A DNA stretch of 27,929 nt from a virus. Positions 910 through 24,029 of the stretch are shown piece by piece. Positions within the stretch are counted from its first letter, which is position 1; each line of letters starts with the position of its first letter. A program made the translations under genes and the position numbers. The DNA lies in IMG/VR virus record IMGVR_UViG_3300010354_000481, positions 1-27,929 of that record, one strand, 5' to 3'. The notes below the pieces were generated by a model. That model saw nothing but the letters and a program-made list of their open reading frames with translations. It was not told where the DNA came from and did not search any database.

Positions 910-915
910 TTCCTT
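910..915 (-). promoter_or_regulatory. Ribosome binding site deciding the gp22-like start
   Basis: AAGGAA on the minus strand ends 6 bases before the ATG at 903 and overlaps the TAA stop of the protease gene (914-916). This suggests coupled translation, and it argues against the longer reading from 954. Confidence 0.65.
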
Positions 916-1747
916 ATTTTTTGCCGCCTTTTTTCTTGGCGGGCTTTCCATCACCGCAGGACTTCATCTCTTGGATAAATTTTGCGGCGTATTTTGAGTA
1001 TGCAGATTCCTTAATTAATTTCTTTGATTCCGATACAGGAACACAATTAGGGACCTTGCGGCCACTTTTCATTTTCATTCCAACTTGCTTATAATTTTTC
1101 CAGCAAGGATCGCCTTTTCTCTTATCTTTTGCTTCATCAATGCGAAGTTCATCAAGTTTATTATCAATCTTGGCTTCCAGCATTGACAGGAATACATTGC
1201 GACCAACAACCTTTTTGATTGTATTCTCAACAGCCTTGGACTGAACACTTTCAGTAAGGGACGGGAATGCACCACGGGTTGAAGGATCAGCAACGATATC
1301 AAATGTTAAGAGCTTGAAATCCTCATTAACAATCTTATGTCCTTTACCTTCGCTCAGTGTTCCCATACCACGGCTGGAAATACCGATCTTGATTCCATCT
1401 TTGATAAGTGCCTCAACAACCTTTCCGGCTGGGGTAGAAAGAATCTCGGCTTCTCCAATAACGTCCTTGCCTTCAAAGCGAAGGCTGGTTATAATGTGAG
1501 AAGCATTAGACAGCTTAACCATGTCATAAGTAGGATGATCCAACTCACCGACACAACGACGCTCTTGAACTGCTTCAATAAGGTTATTGATAGCACTCTC
1601 TAATACTTTTTGAGGATAGATACGACCATTGTTATTAGCTTCGTCAGCCCTTTGAAATACGCCACGAACTTTCATGGGCTTTCCGGGGCCTGCTGATTCA
1701 TTAACTACTTGTAATGTATCTAAAATTCTGACATCTGTTAATAACAT
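914..1747 (-). CDS. gp21: Prohead core protease, gp21-like
   Basis: This 277-residue serine protease of the T4 gp21 type would cleave scaffold, core and capsid proteins inside the prohead. The N-terminal domain (about 1-165) has the family layout: G-R-I-Y-P near 41-45, the GELDHP motif with the presumed catalytic His71, and GISSRG with the presumed nucleophile at Ser124 or Ser125. A VADPS segment (Asp154) is a possible third active-site region. Straight after this domain comes S-L-T-E166 before S167, a plausible self-processing site. The C-terminal tail has a DPCW...VPNCVP motif (residues 213-237) and ends in a Lys/Gly-rich run. The family length in T4 is a little over 200 residues, so the tail is extra. 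The start at 1747 has AAGGA upstream, inside the last codons of the previous gene. The catalytic residue assignment is inferred from motifs. Confidence 0.9.
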   Translation of the reverse strand: MLLTDVRILDTLQVVNESAGPGKPMKVRGVFQRADEANNNGRIYPQKVLESAINNLIEAVQERRCVGELDHPTYDMVKLSNASHIITSLRFEGKDVIGEAEILSTPAGKVVEALIKDGIKIGISSRGMGTLSEGKGHKIVNEDFKLLTFDIVADPSTRGAFPSLTESVQSKAVENTIKKVVGRNVFLSMLEAKIDNKLDELRIDEAKDKRKGDPCWKNYKQVGMKMKSGRKVPNCVPVSESKKLIKESAYSKYAAKFIQEMKSCGDGKPAKKKGGKK

Positions 1748-2567: not shown

Positions 2568-3131
2568 TCAGTACTTCTTGCCCTTAGGCATCTTTTTCAT
2601 TTTAGGAGCGGGCTTCTTAGCCTCAACAACAGGCTCATTCTCTAATTCCTCTAACATCTCTAGAACGACATCGAAGTGTTCGTTCATATTAGCGAGGACA
2701 ACTGAATCATCCTCAACATGTGATTCGCACAGAGGGCAGGTTCCTTCTTGGTGAGCTTCGGTGATAAGGTCATCAAGGGAGACTTCCTCGCCCTCTTGGA
2801 TTGATTGAGCCTTCTCAACGATTGAAAGGAGTGTGCCAAAGTGAGTATCGATGTTCTCAAAGATAACATCATCATTCTCTAACTCTGACTCGCACAGTGG
2901 ACAGGCATCGTATGAAAGAGTATATTCGCTAGACTCTTCCATATCTTCATCACCTTCCCCATCTTCCTCTTCATCCTCGTCCTTGTCCTTGTCAGTTGCG
3001 TCAGCGGCAGGAGGAACAGGCTTATTGTCCTCTTCTTCATTAAGCTTAACTTTAAGGTTAGCTTGGGTCCAGTTAGCCTCAGTCAGAACTGTCTTAATAA
3101 AATCGTTAGTCTCGTCAAAGCGTTTTGCCAT
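2568..3131 (-). CDS. Acidic head-module protein with two Cx2C...H motifs
   Basis: The 187-residue product has four parts: an N-terminal helix with L16-T17-E18 before A19 (candidate gp21 site); a very acidic low-complexity stretch (about 48-67); two copies of a CPLCES motif; and a basic tail (KKPAPKMKKMPKGKKY). The copies are C77-x2-C80...H97 and C132-x2-C135...H152, each with 16 residues between the second Cys and the His. They look like a duplicated metal-binding module, although a clear fourth ligand is missing. A second candidate site, I-T-E125 before A126, lies between the copies. The gene is first in the head module, just downstream of two late-promoter boxes, where T4 has the acidic core gene 67. 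I regard it as a positional analogue, not a proven homologue. The start at 3131 has only a weak GGTGA signal. Confidence 0.65.
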   Translation of the reverse strand: MAKRFDETNDFIKTVLTEANWTQANLKVKLNEEEDNKPVPPAADATDKDKDEDEEEDGEGDEDMEESSEYTLSYDACPLCESELENDDVIFENIDTHFGTLLSIVEKAQSIQEGEEVSLDDLITEAHQEGTCPLCESHVEDDSVVLANMNEHFDVVLEMLEELENEPVVEAKKPAPKMKKMPKGKKY

Positions 3132-3605: not shown

Positions 3606-6600
3606 TTAATTATTAAACCTATTCTCTTTAGTTATAATAGGTTCTGGGATACTAACTTCTGGTATAATTGTATAATCAATATAAGTTATCTTGTCATTAC
3701 GATTTCTGGTAACGTCTTTAATTAACTTACCTCTCCATCCATTAGCTAGAACCTGTTTGAATCCTTCCGGTGCTTGATAGTATAAATCTCCGTATTCGTA
3801 ATTTCTAAGTCTAGAATATACGTCGAACCACTTTAATTCTTTAGGATCATATTGTTCTATTAAGTTATCAATTATTGTGTTAACTATCTTAGAAGTTATA
3901 GGCTTTTGAATAGGTCCCTCTGGTGGTGTTGATTGATATACACCATTAACATAATAAGTGTTAGTATAGTTAGAAGCATCAAACGTATAGTATTCCCTAT
4001 TAGCAAACCCGTAATTTTGTTTAGGTAACCCAGTCTCTAAAGGCTCTGTTGTTACTGACTTAAGAGCAATTTCTGGTTCTGAGAACTCGTTAATGTCGAA
4101 ATAATGAACTCCACTTAAAGTTCTTGTAACTATTGTTCCTGAGAAAGACTTAAGATCTGATTCACTATGGTAAGGATTATGTTTAGTTCCACAACCGGGA
4201 ACTAAGATCAAAGCTAAAGGAACACTACGAGTAAGGATGTCTGACACATCATCGTTCTCGTTTAGCAAGCTATCAAAATATTTAAAAGTTATATCGTTAT
4301 ATTTTAGAGATATCTGGCCTTTTTCTTTTGCATAGTGTATAAAGGGATCTCGATAATCTATGTTGACCCTTCTACTAGCAAGTCCATAATTAGTAATATG
4401 ATCTTGTATTTTTTGAGAATTAGTTAATAGTTTGTATTGAGCAGTTGTTATGTCAATCAATGGATCAGTGCCGGAAACTTCTTGTATTGTGGACAAGTCC
4501 AAAGCAAAATACATTGGAGTTGGGGTCGTAGATAACTCGTAAGTGTCCACAAATTCATGCTGCCCAGACACAGAGCTTGCAGTTAGCTCAAATATTAAAG
4601 GTGTTTTAAATGCTTTTAACGCTGCTAACCTAACACTCTCTGGTATGTACCAAGACTTCCCAACGTCTGTTGTTAGAGGTAATTCTACTTCTCCTACAGA
4701 CGATGTTGTAACCGAAATAAAGTAATCGTCCCCAGTTCCTATTGGAACGTACTGAGCAACCTCAGTAGTATCTTGATCAAAAATAGTTATTCCAGCATCT
4801 TCAAGATAGAGTGGAACTATTTCATTGGCACTGGTTGTAATAGGAATATTAGAATTAATATCTGAGTTTAATCTCTTTTTCCTAAGGATTCTAAACTTTA
4901 GTTGGTTATCCACCTTAGCTGGATCCGCAGGAACTGCTCCTTCAGTTACTAGACCCAGTCCTACCCTCTGGCTAATATCTGTTGCTGTTGTTTGTTTGTA
5001 ATCAACTATTCTGTCGTTAATTTGCTTCTGATATAGATCAAGGTAATAGTTGGGATCAAACTCATTAAGTTTATTAGTTACTATTAGTTTCCTGATTAAT
5101 GCTAAGAAATCATCAAGATTTAAATAAGTATTATCAACATTGTGAAGATTACTGAAAGCTGTCAATAGGTCTTCCCTTAAAGCTAATGAAATTTTTTCTA
5201 AAGTTAAATTAGCGTAATCAGATTCTTTCCAAGTGTAGTCTAATAGAGAATATTTATTTAAGAAGTTAAACACTTCTTTTGGAATATACTCATTAAATAT
5301 TTTTCTGTAAAAATAATTCTTAACATAACTTGTAGTTTGATTTGAAGGTACTTCATAGAAGTTATAAATGTCTTCTATATTATCATAAATTTTATCTTCA
5401 GTCTTTAAACCTAAATCAATAATTTCTTTGGGTTTGTTATACCTTAAATTTAGTTTTTTTGCTAAAAATCCTATTACACTTCCTGAATTTTCATTAGGAT
5501 CACCAATAAGGTTGTCTTTAAAACACTCATCTAGAGTAAAGTAGGGGCACAAAGCTTGGCTGACTTGAGAGTCTGTACATACTTTGCAGACGTTTTCTTG
5601 CGGATCAAATCTATACCTTACGGCAGCAACAACGGACACCCTAGGAGGTTTAGGAACTGTCTCGTAAATTATTGGGCCACATTCTATTGATTGGCACTGG
5701 GTACTAGTTTCACATTGTTCCCTATTTAAGTAAATACAATTACTTGTAGTACCATCACAAGGTTGACAAGATTTAGTTATCCTAAACTCGTTTTGTGAGC
5801 CTTCTGGGCATCTTGCTACGCTTGTTATACAAGCATAAGTATATTCTCTTGTTCTTATTCTAGGAGGTCTAGGAGTTATTACTTCAAATGTATTTTCGTC
5901 TAATCTAATACAATCAGTGGAGCGACAACTTGGGCTTGCTAAACATTCATTATAGTTAGAAAAAATACAGTCAGGATTATTTGGATCGTCTATGCAAGGA
6001 GTACATGTTTTAATAACTCTAAAGGGCTCTTGAGAGTTTGTAGGACAAGACTGCAGAATTATCTCACATTTTGCCTTCGTGATAGGTCTTGGTGTGTTAA
6101 CAGCTATGTATTCATTTGGATCTTGTGGTTGAGAGCAAGATTGACTTATACAGTTAATATCATCTAAACACTCTTGTATATTATTATATTGACATTCTAG
6201 AGATGTAGGATCAGAACAAGGAGCACAGGTTCTTGTAATAGCGTTAGTAGGTAATGTTCCGGGAGGGCAAGACTCTCCTATTGATTCTACACATTGATAT
6301 TTACAATCTGGTAATACGCACCCTGATTCTCTACATTCTGTTAAAGTTGTGTAACCACAATTACCTGTCCCAATAATACAAGGCTCGCAGCGACCACCCA
6401 AGTAAACAGTTTGCTGTTGAGTTGTGGGGTCAATACATGTAACCTCGGCTGGAGTACATTTAAATCCACATTCATCATTTCTGCAGTATTGGCGGCATCC
6501 GTATCGACCATCCAAAGAATCATAAATGCAATCAGGATCCCCAAGTACTACAATTTCTGTAAATCCTCCACCTCCAGTCTGATTAGGTATAAAAGTTCTA

Positions 6601-7445
6601 ACAATTGTTCTTACTATACAAGGGACACAATCTCTAATCTTTCTCTTAACTTCAGAAGTAACTTCAGAGTCACAAGGAAGTTCACTAATTTCTACGCACT
6701 TATAACCTGTTTCAACTATTTCAGTTTGACAAGATGTGGATATACAGTACTCCCTGCATTCAGCAGCAGTACTGTAAATACACATGGGATCAATGGTACG
6801 ATCACATCTTACACAGGTCCTCTTTGTATATGTTTGCTGAGGATCCGCTGGGCATGGAAGTATCTCTTCGACGCACTTGTATCCCGGGAGTTCCCTTTCA
6901 TATTGGCATTCTTCATCTATACAATTACTAATGCACCCAGCCCTAGTTTTAAAATCATCAAGGTCTCTACTTCTTTTATTAGGTTGATCAACACAAGATC
7001 TCCTATCAATAAAAGGCTCTATAGGAACAATAACTCCAAACTCACCTTGTATTGGAGGACATTCAACTTGTCTATCAATACACTTAACTGCTCTTAAAGC
7101 GCAGGGGAATTTATCAAAAGCTTCTGCTTCACACGCTGCTTTGCTTGAATAAGTTTCAACTGATGCAGGTGTAGGAGTAGGAGGAAAGCCCAAACCAATT
7201 TGTACACATTCTCTAGTGGACTCCTCAACGCATCCTCCGTTTTCCATTTGACCCCTGCAAGTACATACCCATGTCTCAGGTCTAGGCTGATTTTGGCCTC
7301 TTGGAGGTCTGGGTACAGGAATATAAACATTAGGATCTTGAGGTTGAGTCGATCCTCCACCACCCCCGGTAGTACCTCCGGGAAAAGTATTTATCCTTAT
7401 CGGCTTTAATTCGCCGCAATTAAAATATGGTGATGGATCAGGCAT
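3606..7445 (-). CDS. Large virion protein with N-terminal cysteine-rich repeat array
   Basis: The 1279-residue product is not a family I recognise. Residues 1-60 are Gly/Pro-rich (a GGGGG linker and a P-R-P-P-R segment). Residues about 61-645 hold some 65 cysteines arranged in about eight imperfect repeats. Residues about 650-1279 are almost cysteine-free and mixed alpha/beta, with Tyr- and Asn-rich segments such as LKWFDVYSRLRNYEYGDLYY near the C-terminus. There is no signal peptide or membrane segment. The neighbours are fibre-like and spike-tip genes in one unbroken late tail cluster, so a structural role at the baseplate periphery or in a fibre is the best inference. The cysteines could form disulfides after release from the reducing cytoplasm, or bind metal. 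The start at 7445 follows the upstream TGA by 4 bases with a GGGATGAG-type signal. Confidence 0.6.
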   Translation of the reverse strand: MPDPSPYFNCGELKPIRINTFPGGTTGGGGGSTQPQDPNVYIPVPRPPRGQNQPRPETWVCTCRGQMENGGCVEESTRECVQIGLGFPPTPTPASVETYSSKAACEAEAFDKFPCALRAVKCIDRQVECPPIQGEFGVIVPIEPFIDRRSCVDQPNKRSRDLDDFKTRAGCISNCIDEECQYERELPGYKCVEEILPCPADPQQTYTKRTCVRCDRTIDPMCIYSTAAECREYCISTSCQTEIVETGYKCVEISELPCDSEVTSEVKRKIRDCVPCIVRTIVRTFIPNQTGGGGFTEIVVLGDPDCIYDSLDGRYGCRQYCRNDECGFKCTPAEVTCIDPTTQQQTVYLGGRCEPCIIGTGNCGYTTLTECRESGCVLPDCKYQCVESIGESCPPGTLPTNAITRTCAPCSDPTSLECQYNNIQECLDDINCISQSCSQPQDPNEYIAVNTPRPITKAKCEIILQSCPTNSQEPFRVIKTCTPCIDDPNNPDCIFSNYNECLASPSCRSTDCIRLDENTFEVITPRPPRIRTREYTYACITSVARCPEGSQNEFRITKSCQPCDGTTSNCIYLNREQCETSTQCQSIECGPIIYETVPKPPRVSVVAAVRYRFDPQENVCKVCTDSQVSQALCPYFTLDECFKDNLIGDPNENSGSVIGFLAKKLNLRYNKPKEIIDLGLKTEDKIYDNIEDIYNFYEVPSNQTTSYVKNYFYRKIFNEYIPKEVFNFLNKYSLLDYTWKESDYANLTLEKISLALREDLLTAFSNLHNVDNTYLNLDDFLALIRKLIVTNKLNEFDPNYYLDLYQKQINDRIVDYKQTTATDISQRVGLGLVTEGAVPADPAKVDNQLKFRILRKKRLNSDINSNIPITTSANEIVPLYLEDAGITIFDQDTTEVAQYVPIGTGDDYFISVTTSSVGEVELPLTTDVGKSWYIPESVRLAALKAFKTPLIFELTASSVSGQHEFVDTYELSTTPTPMYFALDLSTIQEVSGTDPLIDITTAQYKLLTNSQKIQDHITNYGLASRRVNIDYRDPFIHYAKEKGQISLKYNDITFKYFDSLLNENDDVSDILTRSVPLALILVPGCGTKHNPYHSESDLKSFSGTIVTRTLSGVHYFDINEFSEPEIALKSVTTEPLETGLPKQNYGFANREYYTFDASNYTNTYYVNGVYQSTPPEGPIQKPITSKIVNTIIDNLIEQYDPKELKWFDVYSRLRNYEYGDLYYQAPEGFKQVLANGWRGKLIKDVTRNRNDKITYIDYTIIPEVSIPEPIITKENRFNN
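5523..7082 (-). repeat. Tandem cysteine-rich protein repeats inside the 1279-residue protein
   Basis: The repeats cover codons 122-641. The unit is roughly K-C-V, then C-P, then a basic residue with C-x-P-C, then C-[IQG]-[YF] with E-C, then C and C. Units begin at Cys 122, 191, 250, 330, 385, 460 and 539, with a worn last copy at 620. Spacing varies from 55 to 80 residues because linkers differ. The sixth and seventh units are flanked by P-R-P spacers. The pattern is visible by eye in the translation. Whether the units fold as disulfide knots or metal sites is not known. Confidence 0.75.
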
Positions 7446-7449
7446 TGGC

Positions 7450-10053
7450 TCATCCCACTCTCATGTTAGTTACTTTAAATCCGATGTCTTTCACCATAAC
7501 TCTATTACTTATTAATAGTGCGACACGGATATCCACTGATCTATTATTATAGCTTGTAAGTGGAGACTTATAAAGTCTCTTGATTTTTAACTCATATGGA
7601 TTAAGTTCACCTGTTTGAGCTTGTGCTGTGTTAGCCAGTGCAGGTAAACTTGGTTGTGTTGAAGCACTTCTATACTTCATTCCGAAACATTTGAAGTCGT
7701 TATTAAACTTATAATTACCGTTAAAGTCTTGTAAGACTAACCATCCGGGGAATACAGCCCCTGCTAATGTTCCTTCTGTTTCATTAGTACCTCCCAAGCC
7801 AGCAGTAGTTGGAACTGTAGTAGCTCTTAACCAATGAGTTGGTTCTTCTTTTAGTATTCTTGTTAGTAGATAGCGACCAATCTCCTCGCTAGTTACACCC
7901 ATAGGGAACTTCGCAGAAGAAGTAATCACATCAGATATAGTGGTTGTAATACTATTTAAAGGTTTAAGTTTGCTGTAAGTGCTTTCAATGGTCCTTGTAA
8001 ATACTTTATCTGTACTAAAGAGAGGGAATCCAGACAAGTCTCTGGGGGTTTGTACAAATGAATTTACTGTAATAGCTTGTACGGGCTCGGCAAGAATATC
8101 CCAAGTCTCTGTCCCTATTGTTCCAAACTTTAGTGGTAAACTTCTCAAGGTAAAGATGTACCATCTTACTTGATCTAGCCCGCTAGCAGTTTGCTCCCAA
8201 ATAAATTGGTTAAGTAAAGAAATAGAACCTTTGTCTAGCTTGTAAATACCATCAGGTATTGAGTCTCTTCCTTCTGCCCAATCTTGTAAGGTTTGCCTAA
8301 CTCCAGATTCAGTTAAACCATTAATTGGAGTTGTTCCGGCAGTTGTTGGTATACTAGACCTAACAGATGTATTAGGCCACAAACCAAAGTACTTACCACC
8401 AAAGTAAACAGGATTAGTAGAGATTAGTTTGTCTGTAGGAGACTCAATATAAATTTCATTGTATTGATCTCTTAACAGAGCTACCGTAGGTGTTGTTGGT
8501 GTTGTGGTTCCACCTCCACCAGTTACAGAAGGTGTAGGGATATTATTAATTATGCTTAACAATTTTTGAATTTGAGTATCAACGTAATTCTCTGTTGCTA
8601 CTGGATTCATCAAAGAGACTTGAGGGATAGCTGCTGCTAATCCGGCTCTCTCATTGTAGGCTAGCTCTGTTGTTCTAAAGAAAGGTCTGATATCAATGAT
8701 ATCATTAGTATTTAAAGATTGATTTCCTGCTGCGTTTAAGCTTTCTTTACGAACAACGACATAAGCTATTGGAAGAACTGATTGACCTACTAAAGAAAAG
8801 TGTCTCTTAGGCAACCACTCTGCAAGTAAAGGAGCGGTAGTCATCAAATCGTCAGGAGATGGAAATGATCCTCCAACTCCGAGATCAACAAATCCTAAGT
8901 TCTCATTTAATTGATCAGTTACACTTCCCAGTATCTCAGGTCTATTGATAGCTGTCTGTGGGTTTGCAAAGAACCATTGAGAATTATTATTGTAGGAAAG
9001 TCTTACCCCAGCCCCTTTCATAACTCCCAACTCTGCTTTCAGAATCTTTCTTGGAGAGTAGAGCGAAGGTGAGTTTCCATATTCTGATGTCACTGCTGCG
9101 TCACTATACTCAGCAACGTAAGATTCAGTTTGATCAACAGCCTTAGAGTATATAAACAGTAAGTCTATACGGTAATCTGCTTCCCCTGACAAAGAAGTGT
9201 CTAAGTCACCATTTGAATCAAAATAATTAAAGTCATCTGTGTTGAATGGTTCTATTGTTGCGCTTAGTTGATTAGGAACATCTACGACTGCTGTCCTTGC
9301 TATACCTCTCCAACGCTTTACGAAATCACTTTCGTTAAAGTATAAAGTTCTACCAGCTTTTGAAGCAACAGTATTGCTTCTTAATATGGGAACATTAGTT
9401 GGATTGGGTGTAGTTACTCCATTACCCCAAAGGAAAGTAAAGAATACTGGATATGTTTCCAGTAGAGTTAAACCAAATGGAGTTGGGTTAAACTGAGAAT
9501 CTGTAGCACCGGGTATTGTAGCTAAAGAAGTATCAAATACTGCTTCTGTCGTAAAAGTAAAAGGACTAACAAAGTTTCTTTCTGTTAGACCATTCATGCC
9601 TAAAGCGTCACTGGCATTCAGGGACTTTATTCTGTTGAGAACAGATAAAACTTCAGCGTCATTAACTGATTTTATGTCCCAAGTCTGAATATTTTCTACG
9701 TCATCAAAAGTTAATCTTGTAAGCACTTGCAGTGGAGTTAAGTTATATGCATCGTTGATTCTTGCGTTGAATCTACCGGGTCTTACATATACAATATTAT
9801 TTTGATTAAGTTGTTCTACAAATGGTTTTAATTCTGTGAATTGCTCCCTACCAAACTCGGTAGGCTGATTCTGTATATCAATAGTAGCAGACTCTACAGC
9901 TTGCTTGAGCCATAGAATATTCTCCTCAAGCTGCTTGATAGGAATATTATCTACGATACTAACATAAGGATCATTCTCCTTATATTTTCTAATTGGATTA
10001 ATAAATTTAAAAGGATTCTCAGTCGTAGAAAGATTAACTCGTAACGTACTCAT
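7450..10053 (-). CDS. Large tail-fibre or baseplate-periphery protein
   Basis: This 867-residue structural protein has an N-terminal segment (about 1-60) that includes D35-N-I-P-I-x-x-L-E-E, a motif shared with the next gene upstream. A beta-rich body follows to about residue 505 and includes D-I-I-D-I-R-P-F-F-R-T-T-E-L and Y-N-E-R-A-G-L-A-A-A, a segment I associate with phage structural proteins. A Gly/Thr/Pro hinge (about 505-525, GGGGTTTPTTPT) comes next. A separate beta-rich C-terminal domain (about 530-867) has no recognised enzyme motif. The layout of anchor, shaft, hinge and tip suggests a fibre, but its receptor role is inference. The start at 10053 has AAGGA lying in the last codons of the preceding gene. 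Confidence 0.6.
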   Translation of the reverse strand: MSTLRVNLSTTENPFKFINPIRKYKENDPYVSIVDNIPIKQLEENILWLKQAVESATIDIQNQPTEFGREQFTELKPFVEQLNQNNIVYVRPGRFNARINDAYNLTPLQVLTRLTFDDVENIQTWDIKSVNDAEVLSVLNRIKSLNASDALGMNGLTERNFVSPFTFTTEAVFDTSLATIPGATDSQFNPTPFGLTLLETYPVFFTFLWGNGVTTPNPTNVPILRSNTVASKAGRTLYFNESDFVKRWRGIARTAVVDVPNQLSATIEPFNTDDFNYFDSNGDLDTSLSGEADYRIDLLFIYSKAVDQTESYVAEYSDAAVTSEYGNSPSLYSPRKILKAELGVMKGAGVRLSYNNNSQWFFANPQTAINRPEILGSVTDQLNENLGFVDLGVGGSFPSPDDLMTTAPLLAEWLPKRHFSLVGQSVLPIAYVVVRKESLNAAGNQSLNTNDIIDIRPFFRTTELAYNERAGLAAAIPQVSLMNPVATENYVDTQIQKLLSIINNIPTPSVTGGGGTTTPTTPTVALLRDQYNEIYIESPTDKLISTNPVYFGGKYFGLWPNTSVRSSIPTTAGTTPINGLTESGVRQTLQDWAEGRDSIPDGIYKLDKGSISLLNQFIWEQTASGLDQVRWYIFTLRSLPLKFGTIGTETWDILAEPVQAITVNSFVQTPRDLSGFPLFSTDKVFTRTIESTYSKLKPLNSITTTISDVITSSAKFPMGVTSEEIGRYLLTRILKEEPTHWLRATTVPTTAGLGGTNETEGTLAGAVFPGWLVLQDFNGNYKFNNDFKCFGMKYRSASTQPSLPALANTAQAQTGELNPYELKIKRLYKSPLTSYNNRSVDIRVALLISNRVMVKDIGFKVTNMRVG

Positions 10054-10055
10054 TT

Positions 10056-13000
10056 TTAATTATTCCTTGCTAGGTCAAAGTTATTGACAGAAGCCAAGCC
10101 AATACCGACATCTTTATAAATATAATTAGAATCTCCACTACCGCTGCCATAAGGATAATAGATAGAGACTACCTTAGGAGCACCTGATTTGCCTGTTGCA
10201 CAATGTTTAGCATTAGCAAAAATGTTAGCCGCTGATTCATCCAAGAACACCCTTGCAGAGAATGGATCGTGCATCAGTCCTGCGCCAACAGCATACTGAA
10301 AGTTGCTTTGATTGGGGCTCTCAAATCCCACAGGTCTAAAAAGACCAGACAAACCAATGTACCTCTCAGATAAAGCCGCAGTGTACCTTAGTAATGTTTT
10401 ATGCATCGAACTAACACTAGATGTAGCCGACATGAATCCGGGAGGATAATAACCTTGTGCAAATACTTGAGGAATCCATCCCCCACTAAAGTATACTCCT
10501 GAAAGGTTTCCATACCCTAATCCACTTATTATACCTAATTCATTTACTGCTGGATCGGTAGAGAAATAAAGTCTAAAGACACCTTGATTTAAATTTGATG
10601 AAGTAAACACTGAAGAAGCATCACTAGGGCCTGATCCAAAATAATCTAATAAAGAATAACTGCTTACATATGGATCATTAGCCCAAGGAGAAGTGATAGG
10701 AATCGTTACTGGGTCTCCACTAAGGATTCCATTTATGCTTAGGGAAGATAGCCAAACAGCTAGAGGTCCGCAATACCCCGCATCAGTTGGGTAAAGAGAA
10801 CTAACTGAACAGTAAGATGCATTTAATCTAGAGCTATCTGCTATGTTCCAAATAAAGAGCAGCGAACACATTTTTGATATTGAGTCTGCTGTGGCATTAT
10901 AGAACACACCAGAAGGATTCCAGTGACCAGCAGGGAAGTTAACATTCTTAACATTAACCACGCTATCATTGACTGCTCTTACACACATTCCACCATAAGT
11001 AATTGAACTGTAGTTATTAAACGGTTCAATATTTCTATTTAATAAGTAGTAATAAGAATTTCCTGCGGGAGTGAAATTAACATCCGTTCCGGGGGTCACA
11101 AAAGTTCTTACAGCTTCACCTATTGGATTAGGGTAGAACTGCAAGAACCCGCCAGAAACATAGGAATGAAATGCTGTAACACTGTAATCTGGCTTCAAAT
11201 TATTTATAATTGAGCTTCCAGATTTGGAGTCCGACCAAATCTTGTTGTAACTTCCTAAATCCTCAGCGTTAATTACTGAGTTCTTGTTGGCAACTAAACA
11301 AGCTCTAGTTGAGTGCAACTCAACCATTGTGTGATTACCAGCGTCACTCAAATCAAAACTATCGACTTCTAAAGAACCTGCATCGTCTTTATGGGGCAGA
11401 ATATTTAGAACTGAATTATTTTCAGCCAAAACATTAACTGAATGTTGAGCTAAAATTGTAGGCCCTTGAATATCGGCTATTGAATTATTGTTTAAGTATA
11501 TTCCAGCAGTATTATTTTGATTGGTGCTGGTCTCTCTCCCAATAACTGTAGTAGCGTAAGTTTTGCTTCCCTTTAAAACAATCTTTGAATTATTCTCTAC
11601 TGAAATAGGATCTCCAAACTTTGGACCTGTTTCGAGAACATTCTTTGATCTAATCTTAGGATGAACTAATACACACTTTGAAGACTCCTGAATCAAAATT
11701 GATTTAGCATAACTGTTTAAGAATTCATGCGCTCCTAGCACATCTGGCATAGCACTGTCTTTGTTGTATGAGTAAATTGAATTTACTAAGCTCAAGTGCT
11801 TGCTATTTTTATCATAACGGAACTGCTCTTCTGCACCTCCGGCGACAAGTGAATTCTTATTATACAATAAGTTTGAATTTATTAAGGAAACACCTTTTAA
11901 TGTGTTTTCTACAAAGGAGGCTCTATCTAAAACAAGATTTGAATTTAAAGAGAATAAGCCAACATTATTTTGTCTGGTTTTAACTCTGCCGTCCCATTCA
12001 AATGTTGAATTAAGTAATTTAATACCACAACGATTATTCAATTCGCAAACAAGGTTTGTTCCAGAAGACCCGAAAACACCTCCATATAATTTTGAATTTT
12101 CCAGAACTATTCCGTTTGCATTTCTGCTAAAATTCAATGGATAATTTAATCCATAGGATAGCGAGCCGTATGAACTTACTGCGCTAAAGATGCTATCATT
12201 TTCAAACAGAGTTCTTTCAAATGCAGCGGTAGAACTGAATTGTATTTCTGAATTCAAAGCATACAATCCAGCAGCCGAGTCTCTTGAATCATCAAAAAGG
12301 TTGGTATCAAAAATTGTATTGGAGACTCTTGAAGGAGTTGTGGAATAGTTTCTGTAAGCTCCTATCCCTCTAGTTATAATAACCTTAGAATTATTGAAAT
12401 AGAAACCAGCCTTAGAATGTCTAGTTGCTATGCAGTTTTCTAAGTAAACATTTCTAGAGTTAGTAACTTCGATACCATAAGCATTCTTTGTAGTTATATT
12501 ATTGTCATCGACAAAGAAATTTCTTAGGTATATTGGACCGTCACAGTTGGTTACTACTACTTTTGTAAACTTGTTAGCATAGAATAATCCAACGTACTTA
12601 GCCATTAAAGAATCTGTCTCTGGCGCGGCTGTTGTAATGTAACTAGTTCCTTCAACAACGCTAATAGCACTAAAATCTTGACTACCTACAAGGTGATTAT
12701 TAATTGCATCAGTAGTAGTTTCAAATGGAGTTACTTTTATGGAATCTAAAGATACAGTATCAGCACCCGTAGAACTAATAAAGTAAGTAGCTTTTGAATC
12801 TCTACCTTCCCCTACTGGGCAAACCATTCCAAAGATATCAACTGCTAAACTAGTATTAGAAAATATGCTAAGATTTAAAAACTCTGATATAGAGCTTTGA
12901 AAATGTTTTCTAGCTGTAAAGGGAACTGAGTAGGTTAAAGAACTATCGACTCCACTTATTGCGCTGACTGCAAGATAGGCATCAGATAATTTTCCTACAT

Positions 13001-13454
13001 TATTTAAGCTTAAACCATCAAACTCAGGTTCCTGCTTGGCAAATACTTTATTTATGATTTCAAGTGATCCGGTTGGACCACATTTAATATTTTTTAAATT
13101 AAGTTCTCCTAGATTACCTTTATTGCAGATCTCAATGATAACTGGGTAATTAAGAACTTGAGGTAGGGCGGCCACGGCTGCGCTAACCGTCTCAAATGTG
13201 TTTCTATAGGACTCATAGTACTCGGAGCTACCTCCACCTGAAACAACTAAAACAACCCCGGGAAGGGCCGATGTGGGATGTCCTAGCTGCTCCCACAGGT
13301 GATAAGTCCTCTCCTCTAGATCATATATGGGAAGGTTATCCTGCTCCCAGTTGTAGAAAGCACTTGTATCAAACTTAGTGACTTTGTCAGTCCAAGAATT
13401 GTACAGTTTTACTGAGCCGCTAGCTGTATAAAAGTCGTTGTGTAAAAATACCAT
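10056..13454 (-). CDS. Right-handed beta-helix tailspike/fibre-like protein
   Basis: In this 1132-residue protein, residues 39-54 carry the D-N-L-P-I-x-x-L-E-E motif shared with the 867-residue neighbour, probably an attachment segment. Residues about 90-780 show short beta-strand rungs with many Asn-Ser turns (for example N-S-R-N-V-Y-L-E-N-C, N-S-N-L-V-L-D-R-A and N-N-S-K-I-V-L-K). This is the usual appearance of a pectate-lyase-like parallel beta-helix. Phage beta-helix proteins often bind or cut surface polysaccharide. No catalytic Asp/Glu set can be named from the sequence alone. The C-terminal 300 residues are Gly/Ser/Tyr-rich and could form a trimerisation or tip domain. The start at 13454 has AAGG 7 bases upstream. 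The fold is well supported, the enzymatic activity is not. Confidence 0.7.
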   Translation of the reverse strand: MVFLHNDFYTASGSVKLYNSWTDKVTKFDTSAFYNWEQDNLPIYDLEERTYHLWEQLGHPTSALPGVVLVVSGGGSSEYYESYRNTFETVSAAVAALPQVLNYPVIIEICNKGNLGELNLKNIKCGPTGSLEIINKVFAKQEPEFDGLSLNNVGKLSDAYLAVSAISGVDSSLTYSVPFTARKHFQSSISEFLNLSIFSNTSLAVDIFGMVCPVGEGRDSKATYFISSTGADTVSLDSIKVTPFETTTDAINNHLVGSQDFSAISVVEGTSYITTAAPETDSLMAKYVGLFYANKFTKVVVTNCDGPIYLRNFFVDDNNITTKNAYGIEVTNSRNVYLENCIATRHSKAGFYFNNSKVIITRGIGAYRNYSTTPSRVSNTIFDTNLFDDSRDSAAGLYALNSEIQFSSTAAFERTLFENDSIFSAVSSYGSLSYGLNYPLNFSRNANGIVLENSKLYGGVFGSSGTNLVCELNNRCGIKLLNSTFEWDGRVKTRQNNVGLFSLNSNLVLDRASFVENTLKGVSLINSNLLYNKNSLVAGGAEEQFRYDKNSKHLSLVNSIYSYNKDSAMPDVLGAHEFLNSYAKSILIQESSKCVLVHPKIRSKNVLETGPKFGDPISVENNSKIVLKGSKTYATTVIGRETSTNQNNTAGIYLNNNSIADIQGPTILAQHSVNVLAENNSVLNILPHKDDAGSLEVDSFDLSDAGNHTMVELHSTRACLVANKNSVINAEDLGSYNKIWSDSKSGSSIINNLKPDYSVTAFHSYVSGGFLQFYPNPIGEAVRTFVTPGTDVNFTPAGNSYYYLLNRNIEPFNNYSSITYGGMCVRAVNDSVVNVKNVNFPAGHWNPSGVFYNATADSISKMCSLLFIWNIADSSRLNASYCSVSSLYPTDAGYCGPLAVWLSSLSINGILSGDPVTIPITSPWANDPYVSSYSLLDYFGSGPSDASSVFTSSNLNQGVFRLYFSTDPAVNELGIISGLGYGNLSGVYFSGGWIPQVFAQGYYPPGFMSATSSVSSMHKTLLRYTAALSERYIGLSGLFRPVGFESPNQSNFQYAVGAGLMHDPFSARVFLDESAANIFANAKHCATGKSGAPKVVSIYYPYGSGSGDSNYIYKDVGIGLASVNNFDLARNN

Positions 13455-18000: not shown

Positions 18001-19271
18001 AATGAGTAATATACTAAATGAGGAATATAGGATTCCCAAAGCTCCTGAATTGTTGCAGATGCATTAAATATGTCTGGCGAGAATGTAGAATCTACTACTC
18101 TTTGTAGGGCTAACTTAGTTCCACCAGCCTTATAAATGGAGACGCAATTTAGTATCTGGTATCTCCATCTTTGTGGTTCCGAGCCTATTAATCGCCAACC
18201 AACTAAGTCAGCAATATAAGGTAAGAATCTATCTGGGCATCTTTTAGCATCGTTTATAAATTCAAGTAATTCAAAATAATTATTATAATCACAGAAAGCA
18301 TAGGATATTGCTTTTAAGAATTTATAAAATGGACCTTGTATTTCTATTTGATCTAGAGGGAGTCGATTCTGTAAAAAACTTTCAAATGCTTGTTTTACTA
18401 AGGTATCTCCCCTATCATGAAAATCATTTGAATATATGATACCTACTAAGGTCTTAAGTTTTTCTAGTTGCTGTAAACCACTGGTATAAGTAGTGTCTTC
18501 TAAATCAAGATTTGGTCTATAGTATAAAGGTAAAAAATTAAATGATGACCATCCGGGATTGGCTGAGTAGTTTCTGTAAATATACTCAGTCAAGCACTTC
18601 ATAGCAACGTCTAGGCTGAATTCAGAACCCTTCCAAATCGTGTCCATTATTGCATCAGCAATAATTGTGGATCCATCGTAGGTTGCTCCACTGACGTTCA
18701 AGAAGTAAATCCAAGATAAGTTTCTTATTAAATAGGAATGCTCATCAAAACTTTTTACTTCACCTGTATCATAATAAGTTCCGTCATCTAATTCTGCTCC
18801 GTCAAAACTTTCAAAGCCAGCACCCGTCCCAGTAACAGACTTATTGAGTTTAATAGAAGGTAATAATTCAGTTACTAAATAATTTTTGAATTCAGCAGAT
18901 GTGTCGAAGTCTCTTAATGACTTTCCAAGAGGAAGTAATATTCTTCTCTCAAAATCGTTTGCATCAATATTTGTTAAATTATTTTGTTTAACAAAAAATT
19001 GACTTAATCCAGTTATATTATTTACCTTATCATAAGGTGGTCTTGGGCCGGGAACAATTCCATCTATACTGCTTATAATAACTTGAGAAAAGTTATTTGC
19101 AATATTTAAATGAGTGTTAATAATATCAGAAGCAATATCAAGGTCCTGTCCCCCTAATTGTTCATCAACCTCCAAATATACTTTAGGAGTAATTATCTCA
19201 GTTGCTTTTACATAATTTCTTTTGTAAAAGTTTTTGTTGTCATCAAAGTATGCTGGAGTAGTGAATTTCAT
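15075..19271 (-). CDS. gp7: Baseplate wedge protein, gp7-like (Tail_P2_I segment)
   Basis: The 1398-residue product follows gp6 with a TAATG overlap, as gene 7 follows gene 6 in T4. Residues about 340-395 show the Tail_P2_I signature: C344-P-D-R-F-L-P-Y-I-A-D-L-V-G-W, then R-W-R-Y-Q-I-L-N, then K-A-G-G-T-K-L-A-L-Q. T4 gp7 is known to pair with two gp6 chains to build the wedge core through this region. The remaining sequence is mostly beta-rich, with few clear motifs. Residues about 1000-1398 look like one or two beta-sandwich modules. At 1398 residues it is much longer than T4 gp7 (about 1030), so the extra part probably forms peripheral decoration. The start at 19271 has a weak Shine-Dalgarno sequence and probably relies on coupling. 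Confidence 0.75.
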   Translation of the reverse strand: MKFTTPAYFDDNKNFYKRNYVKATEIITPKVYLEVDEQLGGQDLDIASDIINTHLNIANNFSQVIISSIDGIVPGPRPPYDKVNNITGLSQFFVKQNNLTNIDANDFERRILLPLGKSLRDFDTSAEFKNYLVTELLPSIKLNKSVTGTGAGFESFDGAELDDGTYYDTGEVKSFDEHSYLIRNLSWIYFLNVSGATYDGSTIIADAIMDTIWKGSEFSLDVAMKCLTEYIYRNYSANPGWSSFNFLPLYYRPNLDLEDTTYTSGLQQLEKLKTLVGIIYSNDFHDRGDTLVKQAFESFLQNRLPLDQIEIQGPFYKFLKAISYAFCDYNNYFELLEFINDAKRCPDRFLPYIADLVGWRLIGSEPQRWRYQILNCVSIYKAGGTKLALQRVVDSTFSPDIFNASATIQELWESYIPHLVYYSLATESPFFADASSWTLADAEDLSVTYVTSSIDEAVKCAVDKILLDTAEQFKFKFYVQGDLVPVTDPKCKFKYRGRDYSVPPFEEYLYWVNQPISKQIVNFIIDKLIVCFLVPESFAFEVRDYLLANTTLQSENDIALGYTWLTFTSGASYPPNWDTVILDISNKKPEYLSLWNGKSSHFKLFFDANSFRFIRDSILFNSIEGIKLLNEIIDEFSPAHAIKQVYFRLYSEDIETYAQTELDYLLFDKLDSNSLNESDTVGFANYELSGHDLQFYKRGQTTGYNLVDRTSTDSLVDSLMQVSAIAAPRKSFRRRNYRNILPREGLYSRTGHNMPTTFTMEVFERSLSSTGFLSLGLIPSSQTYVQVNDTELDMALISGAIFQTPTTTLFKSWRSIPDIYDICEGLNSSSIYSGLIVSATFPCRGLRALNLEAISGDYTVDRGQLNYAMKLMHYIGDRKTYVLASALVESNSAYTFNKPAYLDIVQSLANEISNSSGFPNSFEDYENFEFGRDLHRLHRDYCNYFNRHSTIRKDLNVNGPNIFAHSLGSILRNSDFELFGSAVTARPDIITRNTSATYRFVAGEDFFPENENPASGAFIVSAPSSFPYSEYSYEIANSAILEGIDLIHTYGGNDNYFEIYRLSAADPDYETTWRVFQLNYPYFTPDNTIIKIKNGFNFTLPRLRMDLKTYSHDSEKGHPLQTNFLVPEHKFKLTIKALATNDTFTEFDRISLGVFIHTAYEKDGTWVYTPQKKWKFVPSEDLTASKIKDEFAIRLNLSSYEIPAITRFCGGTRSVTELRSIYDIATSSFNTYEIELNTKNQPIAVPEFYYKTYQQVHRQNQNYFIELFAYDHPTDFMLIDNINLVDMTLNKWSKPLVSAVNSYYPLNSPSGNPIGDFYLKQHRVDLDKEKLYDVLRFFRDMAGTTAVPGLATRAGDILAGKFEAQGGSRLNYRINSDWPANTTVDFGLSLINTLYLEN

Positions 19272-20872
19272 TATTGAAATACCATTAGTATGTTTAGATT
19301 ATTTAGTTGAATAACTTCATTGAATTGAGTATGAATAACCTTAGGTAAATTGTCTAAAGTAGAATACCTTACTTCGGGAACTTCAAATATTTTTGCATTC
19401 ATTTCTTGTTCAGTAAATGCTTTACCAAACTCAGCATTGTCAATATTAAAGAACTCTAGAATCTTGTCTCTCACTCTTAACTTAATCTCTGCTTCACGAA
19501 TCTGATACTTTCTGTCGCAGCGAACTGTTATGATTGGGTCGATAGTTCTGATTAATCCGTCTACAATAATGATCTCATCTGTGAGCATCTTTTTTGGTTC
19601 AATCGCTTGTAGGAGTTGTTTCTTGAACTCTGGGGTAGCTCTCTTCATTTGAGTATTATTAGCCTTCTCCAGAACATAGATATCAATTATGTTAGCTGAT
19701 GAGAAAGCTTTTCTTGTAGCTACCGTAGCTTTACCTACAGACCCGTAACCGGATCTAAACATGTTTACGAAAGCTAAAAAGTCATTTGTAGTGACAAGAC
19801 GATCTTGTGCTCTGAAGGTTAGTGGAGCATACCTTTTGGCATTTTCGATTGTCTGAGCATTAGTTCCCCCTGTTGCCATAGAAATATTTTCTATTGTGCC
19901 TTGCTTAAGAGACCCCACTATTGTTGTTCCGGTAACTTCATAATAAGGAACAGGAGCATTTAAAGCACTCTTTGCTACGTTACCTCTGGTTCCTCCTCCA
20001 ACTCTATAGTAAACAACATATTGATCACCGGGAGAGGGGGATTGACTGATGGTGTTGTCCCCGAAAACTACAGTACCAGCAAACCTGTCATCATAAATGA
20101 CTTGATAAGCTTTGTCAGTAGGACCCGAAGCAAAGAAAATGTTATCTACTTTTCTGTAATCTCCGACTGTTGCTGAAGGTCCACCAAATATAGAAACTTG
20201 TATGCTTCCTTCAATTATGGGGTACTGAGTCAATGGTATAGATTTAACTGCGTCAGTATCTTCAAACACGCCTTCCTGACGAACTAAATTACCTTCCAAT
20301 AAAATTATGCTACTAATTACAGAACTGGTGCTATCAGTATAATCAAACTCTAAGTCCCCTTGAGCATTATCAAATTCAACAAACCCATTAGGGTTATACT
20401 TATACATTGTGAAAGATAACTGAGTTGCATCCTCAGGAGAAGTTACTGTAAAAGTTCTATTTGCTACAGGAACTTTTACAGTTATTCCGGGCAATCTAGG
20501 TTCCTGTAATGTTATCCTCCCATTTGCTGCTGCTGAAGTAGGCCCTTGAAGTCTAACACCAATTAATTCAAGCAGCTTCTGCACACTTGATCTTTTCTGT
20601 GCTGTACGAAGAAAGTTCTCGTTTGCAAGGAAGTCGGCTTTGTAAGACATTATGTGACCCATAGAAGCAACAAGCTCTATAAGCATCATTCCTAAGTCTG
20701 ACTCAACAAAGTAATTGTAATCTAATGGATAGGCAGCTTGTATATAACTTATAAGATTAGATCTTAAGGTAAGAAAGTCAGAAGCTGTAAAGTCTACAAG
20801 ATCTCCCTTGACCCTATCATCTAGTCGAGCCCGCCTAACATAATCAGTGCTTACTAATCCATTAAATGTCAT
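19271..20872 (-). CDS. gp6: Baseplate wedge protein gp6 (Baseplate_J family)
   Basis: The 533-residue product has the clear gp6/Baseplate_J layout. Residues 55-106 read E-S-D-L-G-M-M-L-I-E-L-V-A-S-M-G, then Y-K-A-D-F-L-A-N-E-N-F-L, then A-Q-K-R-S-S-V and L-I-G-V-R-L. This is the helical segment conserved in gp6-type wedge proteins. The middle includes Y-R-V-G-G-G-T-R-G-N-V and Y-A-P-L-T-F-R-A-Q-D-R-L-V-T, both typical of the core domain. In T4, gp6 forms the inner ring that joins the six wedges and moves on sheath contraction. The protein is shorter than T4 gp6 (660). It overlaps gp25 upstream and the gp7-like gene downstream by TAATG, and has TAGGAAT as ribosome binding site. The call is confident. 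Confidence 0.93.
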   Translation of the reverse strand: MTFNGLVSTDYVRRARLDDRVKGDLVDFTASDFLTLRSNLISYIQAAYPLDYNYFVESDLGMMLIELVASMGHIMSYKADFLANENFLRTAQKRSSVQKLLELIGVRLQGPTSAAANGRITLQEPRLPGITVKVPVANRTFTVTSPEDATQLSFTMYKYNPNGFVEFDNAQGDLEFDYTDSTSSVISSIILLEGNLVRQEGVFEDTDAVKSIPLTQYPIIEGSIQVSIFGGPSATVGDYRKVDNIFFASGPTDKAYQVIYDDRFAGTVVFGDNTISQSPSPGDQYVVYYRVGGGTRGNVAKSALNAPVPYYEVTGTTIVGSLKQGTIENISMATGGTNAQTIENAKRYAPLTFRAQDRLVTTNDFLAFVNMFRSGYGSVGKATVATRKAFSSANIIDIYVLEKANNTQMKRATPEFKKQLLQAIEPKKMLTDEIIIVDGLIRTIDPIITVRCDRKYQIREAEIKLRVRDKILEFFNIDNAEFGKAFTEQEMNAKIFEVPEVRYSTLDNLPKVIHTQFNEVIQLNNLNILMVFQ

Positions 20873-21330
20873 TATATTATTCCTAAATTAACTTCTATAA
20901 AAACGTCATCTTCATCCCTAACTTTACAATAAAGTTTAATGTCTATCCCAGATGTATACTGGTTATTACTTGTTGATTTAACTTCAACTTTTACCAACTC
21001 AACATAAGGAGCATACCTTTGTATAGTTTCTGCTATTTCTCTTTTTATTTTGCTAAAAAGAAATTGATCTTTAGGTTCAAAAAGATATCTTTTTAAGTTA
21101 GTTCCGAATAGAGGTAACATAAATCTCTCACCTCTAGTGGTTTGAATAAGTTGAGTTATATTTCTTTTAATTAACTCTAATCCGCTCATTTTTGAGAAAT
21201 AGCCACCAGCAGTGTTCCATCCTATTGGAAACCCTAGTCCATAAAACTTTTGAACCTTTGAAGCTGTTCTATTATTAGCTTCTTTAGTATTAGGTACACC
21301 AAAAACTTTAGTTTCAGAGTTATAGACCAT
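20872..21330 (-). CDS. gp25: Baseplate wedge protein gp25 (GPW_gp25 family)
   Basis: The 152-residue product has the gp25-type signature: G-L-G-F-P-I-G-W near 31-38, T-R-G-E-R-F-M-L-P-L-F-G at 65-76, then L-F-E-P (83-86), and I-A-E-T-I-Q-R-Y-A-P-Y-V-E. In T4, gp25 sits at the inner end of the wedge and nucleates the sheath. The family is shared with type VI secretion systems (TssE). The start at 21330 lies 2 bases after the preceding stop and lacks any clear Shine-Dalgarno sequence, so its translation is probably coupled to that of the LamG-type gene. The TAATG overlap with gp6 fits co-assembly. Identity is secure from motif, size (T4 gp25 is 132 residues) and neighbours. Confidence 0.93.
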   Translation of the reverse strand: MVYNSETKVFGVPNTKEANNRTASKVQKFYGLGFPIGWNTAGGYFSKMSGLELIKRNITQLIQTTRGERFMLPLFGTNLKRYLFEPKDQFLFSKIKREIAETIQRYAPYVELVKVEVKSTSNNQYTSGIDIKLYCKVRDEDDVFIEVNLGII

Positions 21331-21332
21331 GG

Positions 21333-24029
21333 TTAGACAGTTAGATCAATGTTAGAGAAGAAATTTGACTGCGCCCGATAGTTATTTACTATCTGATCAG
21401 AATTTAATGCTTTATTGTATATCTTAAAACTTCCAAGATACCCATCTAGGGCTGATCTTCGTCCACCATAAGTTAATCCAAGGAAACCACTGTTGGCAGC
21501 ATTAAATCCATCAGTATAACCTCCTCCTATAACCCAAGGCGTAAACTTGTAATAGGTATCGATATTTCTTCTATCACTAAATTCTAATCCAGTATTTATC
21601 TTAGATAAGTATCCAAGATAACGGGGGGTATAGGCAAAACTATTATTCTGAGTAGATTCGACTTTGTCTATAACAAAGGTTGGAACGTTTAAAGTCTTGT
21701 AGGGTGACACTGCGAAAGTTAGATCAAGACTAGAAGTCGCCATTAGACTTCCGTCTAAGTAAACACTTATGTTGTTCTTCTGTGGATTAATAGAGATAGA
21801 CAAGTGACAGAATCTATCTTGGATAGCCGACATGGCTAGCCCCTCTGCGTTTACTTGATTTATATTCATCTTAAAGCACAAAGATTCCTTGGTGGAAATA
21901 CAGTTATCCTCAGCATTAGGAACCGTTGATGACTTATTTAAAAATCCAATAGATGAACCATCTACAGACTGGGTTTGAGCAATGAAGAAACAGGTCTCCG
22001 AGCCGGGATTACTGACATCCAAATCAGAAGGAGTCTCTCCTAGAGTTATTCTTCTGTCTCTAGTAAATCCAATCAAAAGACCCTTAACTACATTGTTGCC
22101 TTCATCTGGCTTTAAGTAGCCAATGTTTTTCTGTTTATTATCAGAGAAATTTATACCAAAATTTTCGTTTGCAAGAATTATCTTGTACATCTGCTGGACT
22201 GTTCCTTGATTCTGTGGGACGAGATCAGGTACATGAATCCAGAAATCAAAAGTAGCTCCTTGCTTAGAGTATAATAAATCCTCTAATTCTCTCCTTGGAG
22301 GCAAGATAACATGGTTGGAAAATCCTTCAACTACACCAGCAATATCGAACTTAACTACACCATCTAGGTAAGGTATGCCCAGACCTTTACTGAATACAGA
22401 AGGGATACTTGATGCTACTAATTTAGCATTTAGTATATTGTTGGTAGTTATACAATTATCGAGAAGATATTGATAAGAGCTTGCAGCCTCTACGTTTGTT
22501 TCTAGGAAGTTGTAAATTGCTACAAGATTTTCTTTAACAACTTCAGTTTCACTTCTCAATATTGTTGCTTTGATGTCCTCTAAGGAGCTTGCGCTACCCA
22601 ATATATTTGCTTCGCCTACCATCGATAACAATAGTTGATCAATGGTCATGTGTATTGAATCTTTTGGTGGCTGAGTATAAGTTGCCTCTACTGGCATTAT
22701 GATGCCATTTACATCATCATGATCTAGGGTAAGCTCTCTCTGTTTTTGTATATCAACTAAGAAGTTTGTTCCTGCTAGGTAAGAGAAATCATTAATAGGG
22801 ACATTCCCGGGAGTAAATTTATTTTTACCAAGTCTAACAGCTAGCTCAATTTGCTTTCTTCTCTTCTTTACTTTGTTGGAGAATGCTGCTAGCTCTGATA
22901 GTAAACTTTGTCTGGTGTTCAGTTTCTCCGCTTCGCTGTATGTATTATCAGCCTCTATCTCTGTAACCAAGGCAGACAAATCATATACTCTTTTGTTCTT
23001 ATGTATTTGAAGCTGCTCTAAATAATTGTCTTGATCATAGAATGGTTGCAAATCTTTTGAATCATCACTTCTCTCAATATCTAAGATATTATCAACATAT
23101 TCTTTAATTTGTTTTAGGGAGACTCCTTTACCTCTGCCTCCTATATTTGGGTCATGCTCAAATGTCCAAAATATAGAACTTGTTTGATTGAACTCAGCTT
23201 TCTTTCTAGCTATTTCCGTAAATGCTAAGGACAATCCCTCAGAGGCTGATTGTGAGTCGTAATACAAACCATCTTCAGTGAGTAAGAATTTTCCATACCT
23301 AGCCTTAGGAGGTCCATAGGAAAGTCTAAATATCTCTTGTTCTTCCTGAGGAGTGAATGCTTGTACAATCTCATCCTCATTTGCAAACTGCCTAATATCA
23401 ACATTTCTGTTAGGAACGAATCTAGGGCCTCTTGAGGGATCCTCTGCTCTAGCTGCAAACTCGGCATCAATTCTATTAATGAGGTCCGTAGCCTGCTGAA
23501 CGAAATCTACAGATCTTTGAATGAAATCTAGCTCGCTATCTAAGCCTGAAAAGTTAAGCTCTTCCTGAGTGACTGAGCCTACTTTGCTGTCTAGCGAATT
23601 CTTATACGAGTCTAAACATCTCTTAGCATCCTCAATCTCATTTTTAACTGCTTCATAGTTTGCATACATTGCTGCTGCATAATCTCTTATTGCTGAAATG
23701 TAAGCTAATACTCTTGAGATAAGACTAAAGAAGTCGATACCGAACAAAGAAAACTTAGATAAGAACTTAAGTCTACCATTCTCATCAAATGGATAAAATA
23801 CACCAAGACGGTCTCTGAGCCATGCTGTAAAGGCTGCAATGTCGTTTTCTGCGGCCATTCTTCCGAGCATGGCATCTACCCTTATAGCCTGAAGAACATC
23901 GTCAGGAAGGAGGGCTAGGACCTTTCCAGCCAGATTTAACATGCATGATGGCATTCCAAAAGCATTAGCTAGTGCTTCGGGAGTGCCTTGACTATTGGTT
24001 AAAAATTCTTTAGCGTTAAATGATGGCAT
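21333..24029 (-). CDS. Virion structural protein with C-terminal LamG/concanavalin-like domain
   Basis: In this 898-residue protein, residues about 1-110 are helical and hydrophobic, with no signal peptide. Residues about 115-200 and 330-400 are charged and helical, probably coiled coil. Residues about 585-890 look like a concanavalin A-like/LamG jelly roll: T-F-D-F-W-I-H-V-P, then R-F-C-H-L-S-I-S-I-N, then I-S-V-Y-L-D-G-S-L-M-A-T, and the closing G-Y-L-G-S-F-K-I-Y-N-K-A-L-N-S-D-Q-I. Such domains usually bind glycans. The gene lies between spike and gp25 genes, so a baseplate-attached, possibly glycan-contacting part is inferred. The N-terminal two-thirds match no family I recognise. The start at 24029 has only TGAG as ribosome binding signal. 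Confidence 0.65.
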   Translation of the reverse strand: MPSFNAKEFLTNSQGTPEALANAFGMPSCMLNLAGKVLALLPDDVLQAIRVDAMLGRMAAENDIAAFTAWLRDRLGVFYPFDENGRLKFLSKFSLFGIDFFSLISRVLAYISAIRDYAAAMYANYEAVKNEIEDAKRCLDSYKNSLDSKVGSVTQEELNFSGLDSELDFIQRSVDFVQQATDLINRIDAEFAARAEDPSRGPRFVPNRNVDIRQFANEDEIVQAFTPQEEQEIFRLSYGPPKARYGKFLLTEDGLYYDSQSASEGLSLAFTEIARKKAEFNQTSSIFWTFEHDPNIGGRGKGVSLKQIKEYVDNILDIERSDDSKDLQPFYDQDNYLEQLQIHKNKRVYDLSALVTEIEADNTYSEAEKLNTRQSLLSELAAFSNKVKKRRKQIELAVRLGKNKFTPGNVPINDFSYLAGTNFLVDIQKQRELTLDHDDVNGIIMPVEATYTQPPKDSIHMTIDQLLLSMVGEANILGSASSLEDIKATILRSETEVVKENLVAIYNFLETNVEAASSYQYLLDNCITTNNILNAKLVASSIPSVFSKGLGIPYLDGVVKFDIAGVVEGFSNHVILPPRRELEDLLYSKQGATFDFWIHVPDLVPQNQGTVQQMYKIILANENFGINFSDNKQKNIGYLKPDEGNNVVKGLLIGFTRDRRITLGETPSDLDVSNPGSETCFFIAQTQSVDGSSIGFLNKSSTVPNAEDNCISTKESLCFKMNINQVNAEGLAMSAIQDRFCHLSISINPQKNNISVYLDGSLMATSSLDLTFAVSPYKTLNVPTFVIDKVESTQNNSFAYTPRYLGYLSKINTGLEFSDRRNIDTYYKFTPWVIGGGYTDGFNAANSGFLGLTYGGRRSALDGYLGSFKIYNKALNSDQIVNNYRAQSNFFSNIDLTV

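Follow-up and report, generated by a model that had tools for sequence, protein, structure and literature searches.

The DNA window analysed here, a virus record from IMG/VR of 27,929 bases, encodes a protein whose N-terminal half is filled with small cysteine-rich modules that are probably closed by disulfide bonds. The observations as a whole are best explained by a peripheral tail or baseplate protein of a T4-like phage, consisting of a conserved domain and a variable arm of disulfide beads that faces the host or the environment, a reading to which we give a probability of roughly 0.6. The protein is best described as belonging to a new family of repeat-bearing tail proteins, with a module for which no described relative was found. 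Virions of tailed phages assemble in a reducing cytoplasm, and phage proteins built on disulfides are unusual.

The array gene and its neighbourhood

The array gene begins just downstream of the end of the ORF for an 867-aa protein (Table 1). Homologues in 67 loci retain the same frame, position, and neighbours, and the reading frame is therefore real; an ORF on the opposite strand, at 6411-7097 (+), is regarded as a shadow frame that accompanies the array. The product contains 66 cysteines, 65 of which fall within residues 1-641 (window positions 5523-7445), and the probability of at least 65 of 66 doing so by chance is 2e-19 (hypergeometric). Cysteine makes up 10.1% of this region, compared with 0-2.1% of each other ORF in the cluster, and histidine is absent from it. 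The cysteines are arranged as a lone Cys10 and nine modules, six with eight cysteines, two with six, and one with four (1 + 6 + 6 + 48 + 4 = 65). An earlier note, made from the letters of the window, had pointed to a cysteine-rich repeat array in a tail-cluster protein and to the lack of a named family for the repeat. The array is confirmed by these counts, with nine modules in place of the ‘about eight’ given there, and searches of Pfam, PHROGs, NCBIfam, and PDB with the array protein gave no relative.

Wherever contigs reach, the order of genes is constant, gp6-1398-334-201-1132-867-CYS-136-127-gp21-gp22, where CYS is the array gene; near relatives have extra 130 and 187 genes between CYS and 136. 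In the syntenic locus L002, gp23, gp15, and gp18 lie farther out, past gp21-gp22. With gp6 and gp25 in the same operon, gp21 nearby, and gp23 and the gp18 sheath in L002, the cluster is that of the tail of a T4-like (gp23-type) myophage. The array gene follows gp25 and gp6 and recurs throughout the syntenic loci, which suggests a place for its product in the tail or baseplate, as the earlier note had assumed in calling it a virion protein.

Among the neighbours, the 1132-aa protein is well conserved (34-59% identity), has no database match, and is a candidate fibre or spike. A 187-aa protein (2568-3131, −) has zinc-finger-like CxxC motifs with weak matches to the Rad50 zinc hook and to RING, and its gene adjoins the array gene in six near relatives only. 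Adjoining gp25, an 898-aa protein (21333-24029, −) has a weak match to Laminin_G_3 (lectin-like) near its C-terminus.

Table 1. Positions in the window of the array gene, its parts, and selected neighbouring genes.
Feature	Position	Strand	Basis or remark
gp21-like prohead protease	914..1747	−	database match
Whole array gene (CYS), 1279 aa	3606..7445	−	ATG start at 7445
C-terminal domain, residues ~686-1279, family-wide	3609..5390	−	AF2 pLDDT 83, pTM 0.83
Module 8, residues 620-641, 4 Cys, C3-C6 only	5523..5588	−	sequence
Module 7, residues 539-589, full 8-Cys	5679..5831	−	sequence
Module 6, residues 460-512, full 8-Cys	5910..6068	−	sequence
Module 5, residues 385-437, full 8-Cys	6135..6293	−	sequence, AF2
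Module 4, residues 330-381, full 8-Cys, modelled together with module 5	6303..6458	−	sequence, AF2
Module 3, residues 250-326, full 8-Cys, C4-C5 loop of 29 residues	6468..6698	−	sequence
Module 2, residues 191-239, full 8-Cys	6729..6875	−	sequence
Module 1, residues 122-180, 6 Cys, without C4 and C5	6906..7082	−	sequence
Module 0, residues 61-115, 6 Cys, distinct WVCxC type	7101..7265	−	sequence
N-terminal motif with lone conserved Cys10 (..FNCGE..), residues 1-18	7392..7445	−	family comparison
Adjacent 867-aa protein	7450..10053	−	syntenic in 58 loci; no database match
1132-aa protein, weak beta-helix similarity	10056..13454	−	syntenic in 55 loci
gp6-like baseplate wedge subunit	19271..20872	−	phrog_219, 2.6e-40
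gp25-like baseplate wedge subunit	20872..21330	−	phrog_261, 3.4e-21

A variable family in an uncultured lineage

Relatives were gathered by scans of IMG/VR, with the gp21 protease as the first query and the C-terminus of the family as the next. This gave 73 distinct members, all on contigs in IMG/VR from a T4-like lineage that is uncultured, comprises at least 70 such contigs, and has no close isolate; even the best phage record shares only ~30% identity with its capsid protein. No relatives of the array protein were found among 50,697 phage records (including by tblastn), scans with a single protein as the query gave no match, and a literature search found no description of such a protein or module.

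The members share a common layout, in which a short segment ending in CG is followed by a Pro/Gly-rich linker, zero to nine cysteine modules, and a C-terminal domain of ~600 residues that is common to all; the window protein has the highest number of modules. The CG is present in 54 of the 56 members with an intact start and often extends to CG[ED][FY]xPG. The number of modules differs by module-sized steps among close relatives. For example, L036 and L108 have 15 and 11 cysteines, respectively, with C-terminal identity of 87%, and L043 and L057 have 9 and 15 with 65%. Comparison of the window with L083 gave identities of 73% for the 334-aa, 70% for the 201-aa, 59% for the 1132-aa, and 48% for the 867-aa protein; for the array protein the values are 46% in the C-terminus and 39% in the N-region, even when cysteines are counted.

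In L028, the array (29 Cys, an odd number; 4434-5924) and the C-terminal domain (5949-7898) are two ORFs, the second with its own ATG ~35 bases past the stop of the first; if this is not a sequencing error, both halves would be able to act as separate chains. Two distant members, L032:5391-8498 and L033:5617-8469, keep a CGQLLPGQG start but arrange their cysteines differently, in part as adjacent CC pairs, so this gene position may accommodate cysteine modules of different kinds.

The full unit has the spacing C1-x6/7-C2(P)-x12-15-C3-x2-C4-x6-29-C5-x7-10-C6-x3-5-C7-x4-C8. The WVCxC type of module 0 is also present in L002, L029, L083, L004, L005, and L094. Reduced units with four cysteines (L036, L108) align with the 8-Cys module at E 7.8e-5, which supports a common module. 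Units of the window are 27-47% identical in pairwise amino-acid comparison and no long DNA repeat was found across them, so the copies are old; recent tandem duplication was rejected on these grounds.

Cysteines are present and lost in pairs

Cysteines were counted from the start codon up to the C-terminal domain in 55 members. The total is odd in 53 of them, so that an even number remains once the one conserved cysteine is set aside. When members were clustered at 40% identity and each combination of cluster and count was given a single vote, 28 of 30 votes were odd (p 4e-7), the votes being less than fully independent since modules are inherited whole. Four neighbouring proteins from the same phages served as a control, and their even and odd totals are random (even:odd of 26:26, 18:20, 44:33, and 32:28). 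The exceptions to parity, L009 and L013, have even totals and one extra cysteine each, just ahead of a module.

Incomplete modules lack particular sets of cysteines. Cysteines 2 and 8 are missing from reduced modules in, for example, L040, L057, L126, L036, L102, and L149. Cysteines 4 and 5 are missing from module 1 of the window and from modules in L047, L045, L052, and L041, where the CxxC is broken and the other cysteines are kept. The set 1, 2, 7, and 8 is missing from the terminal module of the window, L083, L029, L002, L004, and L005, and also in L003. Finally, 3 and 6 are missing twice in L009, twice in L028, and in L020, L008, and L013, losses that were assigned by eye from spacing and local context. 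A single one of the 105 pairings of eight cysteines, 1-7, 2-8, 3-6, and 4-5, fits all of these losses, and the other classes suffice to fix it when the one that lacks 3 and 6 is set aside. The array thus follows the pattern of a disulfide module, in which cysteines occur, and disappear, two at a time. From the sequences, disulfides and not metal would best explain the array cysteines, because of the parity, the paired losses, the absence of histidine, and the broken CxxC motifs.

An AF2 model of modules 4-5, made with 24 aligned tandem pairs, has a pLDDT of 92.5. In the predicted unit, C1 through C4 lie on a long hairpin and C6 lies in a short helix, with C7 just after it. Judged from residue numbers, the register would place C1 and C3 opposite each other across the hairpin and C6 and C7 near the helix, an arrangement that fits pairs 1-7 and 3-6. 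Foldseek searches with the tandem model returned nothing at E ≤ 0.001 and no PDB match. The model of the C-terminal domain had no fold match in PDB or BFVD, and the domain had no profile match in PHROGs.

Metal sites and Kunitz domains as alternatives

If each module instead bound Zn or Fe-S through its cysteines, it could be rigid without oxidation, and such sites would suit a reducing cytoplasm. C3, C4, C5, and C6 (a CxxC plus two cysteines) make a possible four-thiolate site, and exactly these are present in the terminal module of the window and in the single module of L003. However, the modules without C4 and C5 break the CxxC and keep everything else, and other modules lack 2 and 8, or 3 and 6. 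Once the lone cysteine is subtracted, totals are even yet often not multiples of four (50, 34, 14, 10), and the array, which has no histidine, matched no metal-site family. A Cys4 zinc-site repeat would have four ligands per site, keep its CxxC together, and exchange Cys with His, and the array does not behave in this way. A metal-site array was therefore rejected as the main reading and appears improbable. The ‘string of metal sites’ suggested in the earlier note is disfavoured for these reasons, with losses paired and not fourfold. Its ‘disulfide-locked fibre stalk’ fared better in part, as the cysteine pattern agrees with disulfides; a stalk is not supported, since the modules are predicted to be compact beads and are gained and lost whole between relatives. 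Hardening after lysis and binding to the host surface, also raised there, are plausible suggestions.

The modules could also be divergent Kunitz/BPTI inhibitors, perhaps directed against host or environmental proteases. Reduced units with four cysteines gave weak matches to PF00014 (L036, E 0.0045, 17.6 bits; L108, E 0.042, 14.5 bits; cut-off 21 bits), and the nested order proposed for C1-C7 and C3-C6, with a helical CxxxC, is the same as that in BPTI, where disulfides link 5-55 and 30-51. Against this, the hhalign alignment to BPTI covers the last 15 columns only, the 8-Cys profile gave no useful alignment with BPTI, the tandem model found no Kunitz structure in Foldseek, and the window protein has no PF00014 match. 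Furthermore, a Kunitz domain has its fold and six cysteines paired 1-6, 2-4, and 3-5, whereas the module has eight, and no PF00014 match rose above the cut-off. With so weak a resemblance, and with no support from hhalign or Foldseek, Kunitz membership was rejected, and we consider it very unlikely.

A proposed role for the bead arm

In the tail-protein reading that we prefer, the C-terminal domain would dock the protein to the tail, and the N-terminal half would be a chain of independently folded beads, each a beta-hairpin plus a helix. Each bead would be locked by up to four disulfides, C1-C7, C2-C8, C3-C6, and C4-C5; this pairing is proposed because of the paired losses and is consistent with the confident AF2 fold. 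Whole beads come and go from one related phage to another, and the arm that they form may be an exposed spacer or adhesin facing the host or the environment. Its exposure is suggested by the whole-bead gain and loss, together with divergence faster than that of the structural neighbours. Variable length and fast divergence are typical of exposed parts of phage tails.

Barring the action of a host or phage oxidase inside the cell, the protein would be synthesised in reduced form and oxidised on lysis. Oxidation at lysis in oxic water is the simplest account; a host equipped for oxidation, or a phage oxidase that escaped detection, would also suffice. Inspection by eye revealed no signal peptide in the array protein. 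Among 34 (mostly partial) records of the lineage, neither a DsbA-like gene nor psbA, a marker of photosynthetic hosts, was found, and a search for an Evr1/Alr oxidase gave no match, with its control also silent. One thioredoxin is encoded in G023. The lone N-terminal cysteine has no place in the intramolecular scheme; it may form a cross-link between chains or to a partner. The cytoplasm of E. coli is otherwise reducing, and capsids are known to be stabilised by disulfides, both inside a subunit and from one subunit to another (PMC8923235).

Our preferred picture is of rigid beads in an exposed arm, which would lengthen or decorate the tail and could attach to hosts; within it, binding and a role as spacer or shield carry about equal weight. 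The disulfide beads may on the other hand be an inert part that sets length or protects, as a tether or protease shield, and not a binding array; this is a serious possibility, albeit one that we hold below even odds. The variation from none to nine modules while the C-terminal domain and N-terminal motif persist, the long Pro/Gly linkers that accompany the modules, and the strong variation in loop lengths within modules would all fit an inert part. However, the length of the N-region is not kept when modules are absent, and the differences in bead number among close relatives fit host adaptation at least as well. A bolder account is that an undescribed, phage-evolved disulfide module was multiplied into a variable array of tail beads in a widespread uncultured T4-like lineage. 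Folding would take place during lysis or after it, the infectious tail thereby being built in two redox steps, and the lone cysteine would cross-link subunits. We regard this combination as speculative and somewhat doubtful.

The presence of ~32 apparent disulfides in a tail-cluster protein raises the questions of when and by what they are formed, and of whether infectivity depends on oxidation after lysis. The family would provide a new small disulfide scaffold with a proposed bond map, and with its natural length series, from 0 to 9 modules, related phages offer a way to test what the array does. In addition, the family is a marker for the tail module of a T4-like lineage of which the searched collection contains no isolate.

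Comparison with known systems

The Kunitz domain (PF00014) shares with the module its short disulfide-built form, a helix with C-x3-C, and the nested pairing proposed here, and its C-terminal part, [FY]xSxxxCxxxC, is the closest formal resemblance. The module differs in having eight cysteines, with two extra putative pairs and cysteines directly on strand 1, and the full module has no sequence or fold match. At the level of gene order, the cluster in the window follows gp25 and gp6, as do the T4 genes after gp6 (gp7 to gp12, and wac), but its neighbouring proteins have no detectable homology to solved structures. In contrast to Mosig and Melnitz, the tail cluster of the window lineage runs directly into gp21-gp22-gp23. 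Phage tail fibres and baseplate proteins can carry repeated domains such as Ig-like modules. The repeat of the array is built on cysteines and unrelated to these in sequence, with no such family in PHROGs or Pfam, but the array protein resembles Ig-decorated phage proteins in its location among tail genes, its conserved core with variable repeats, and its faster divergence than that of its neighbours.
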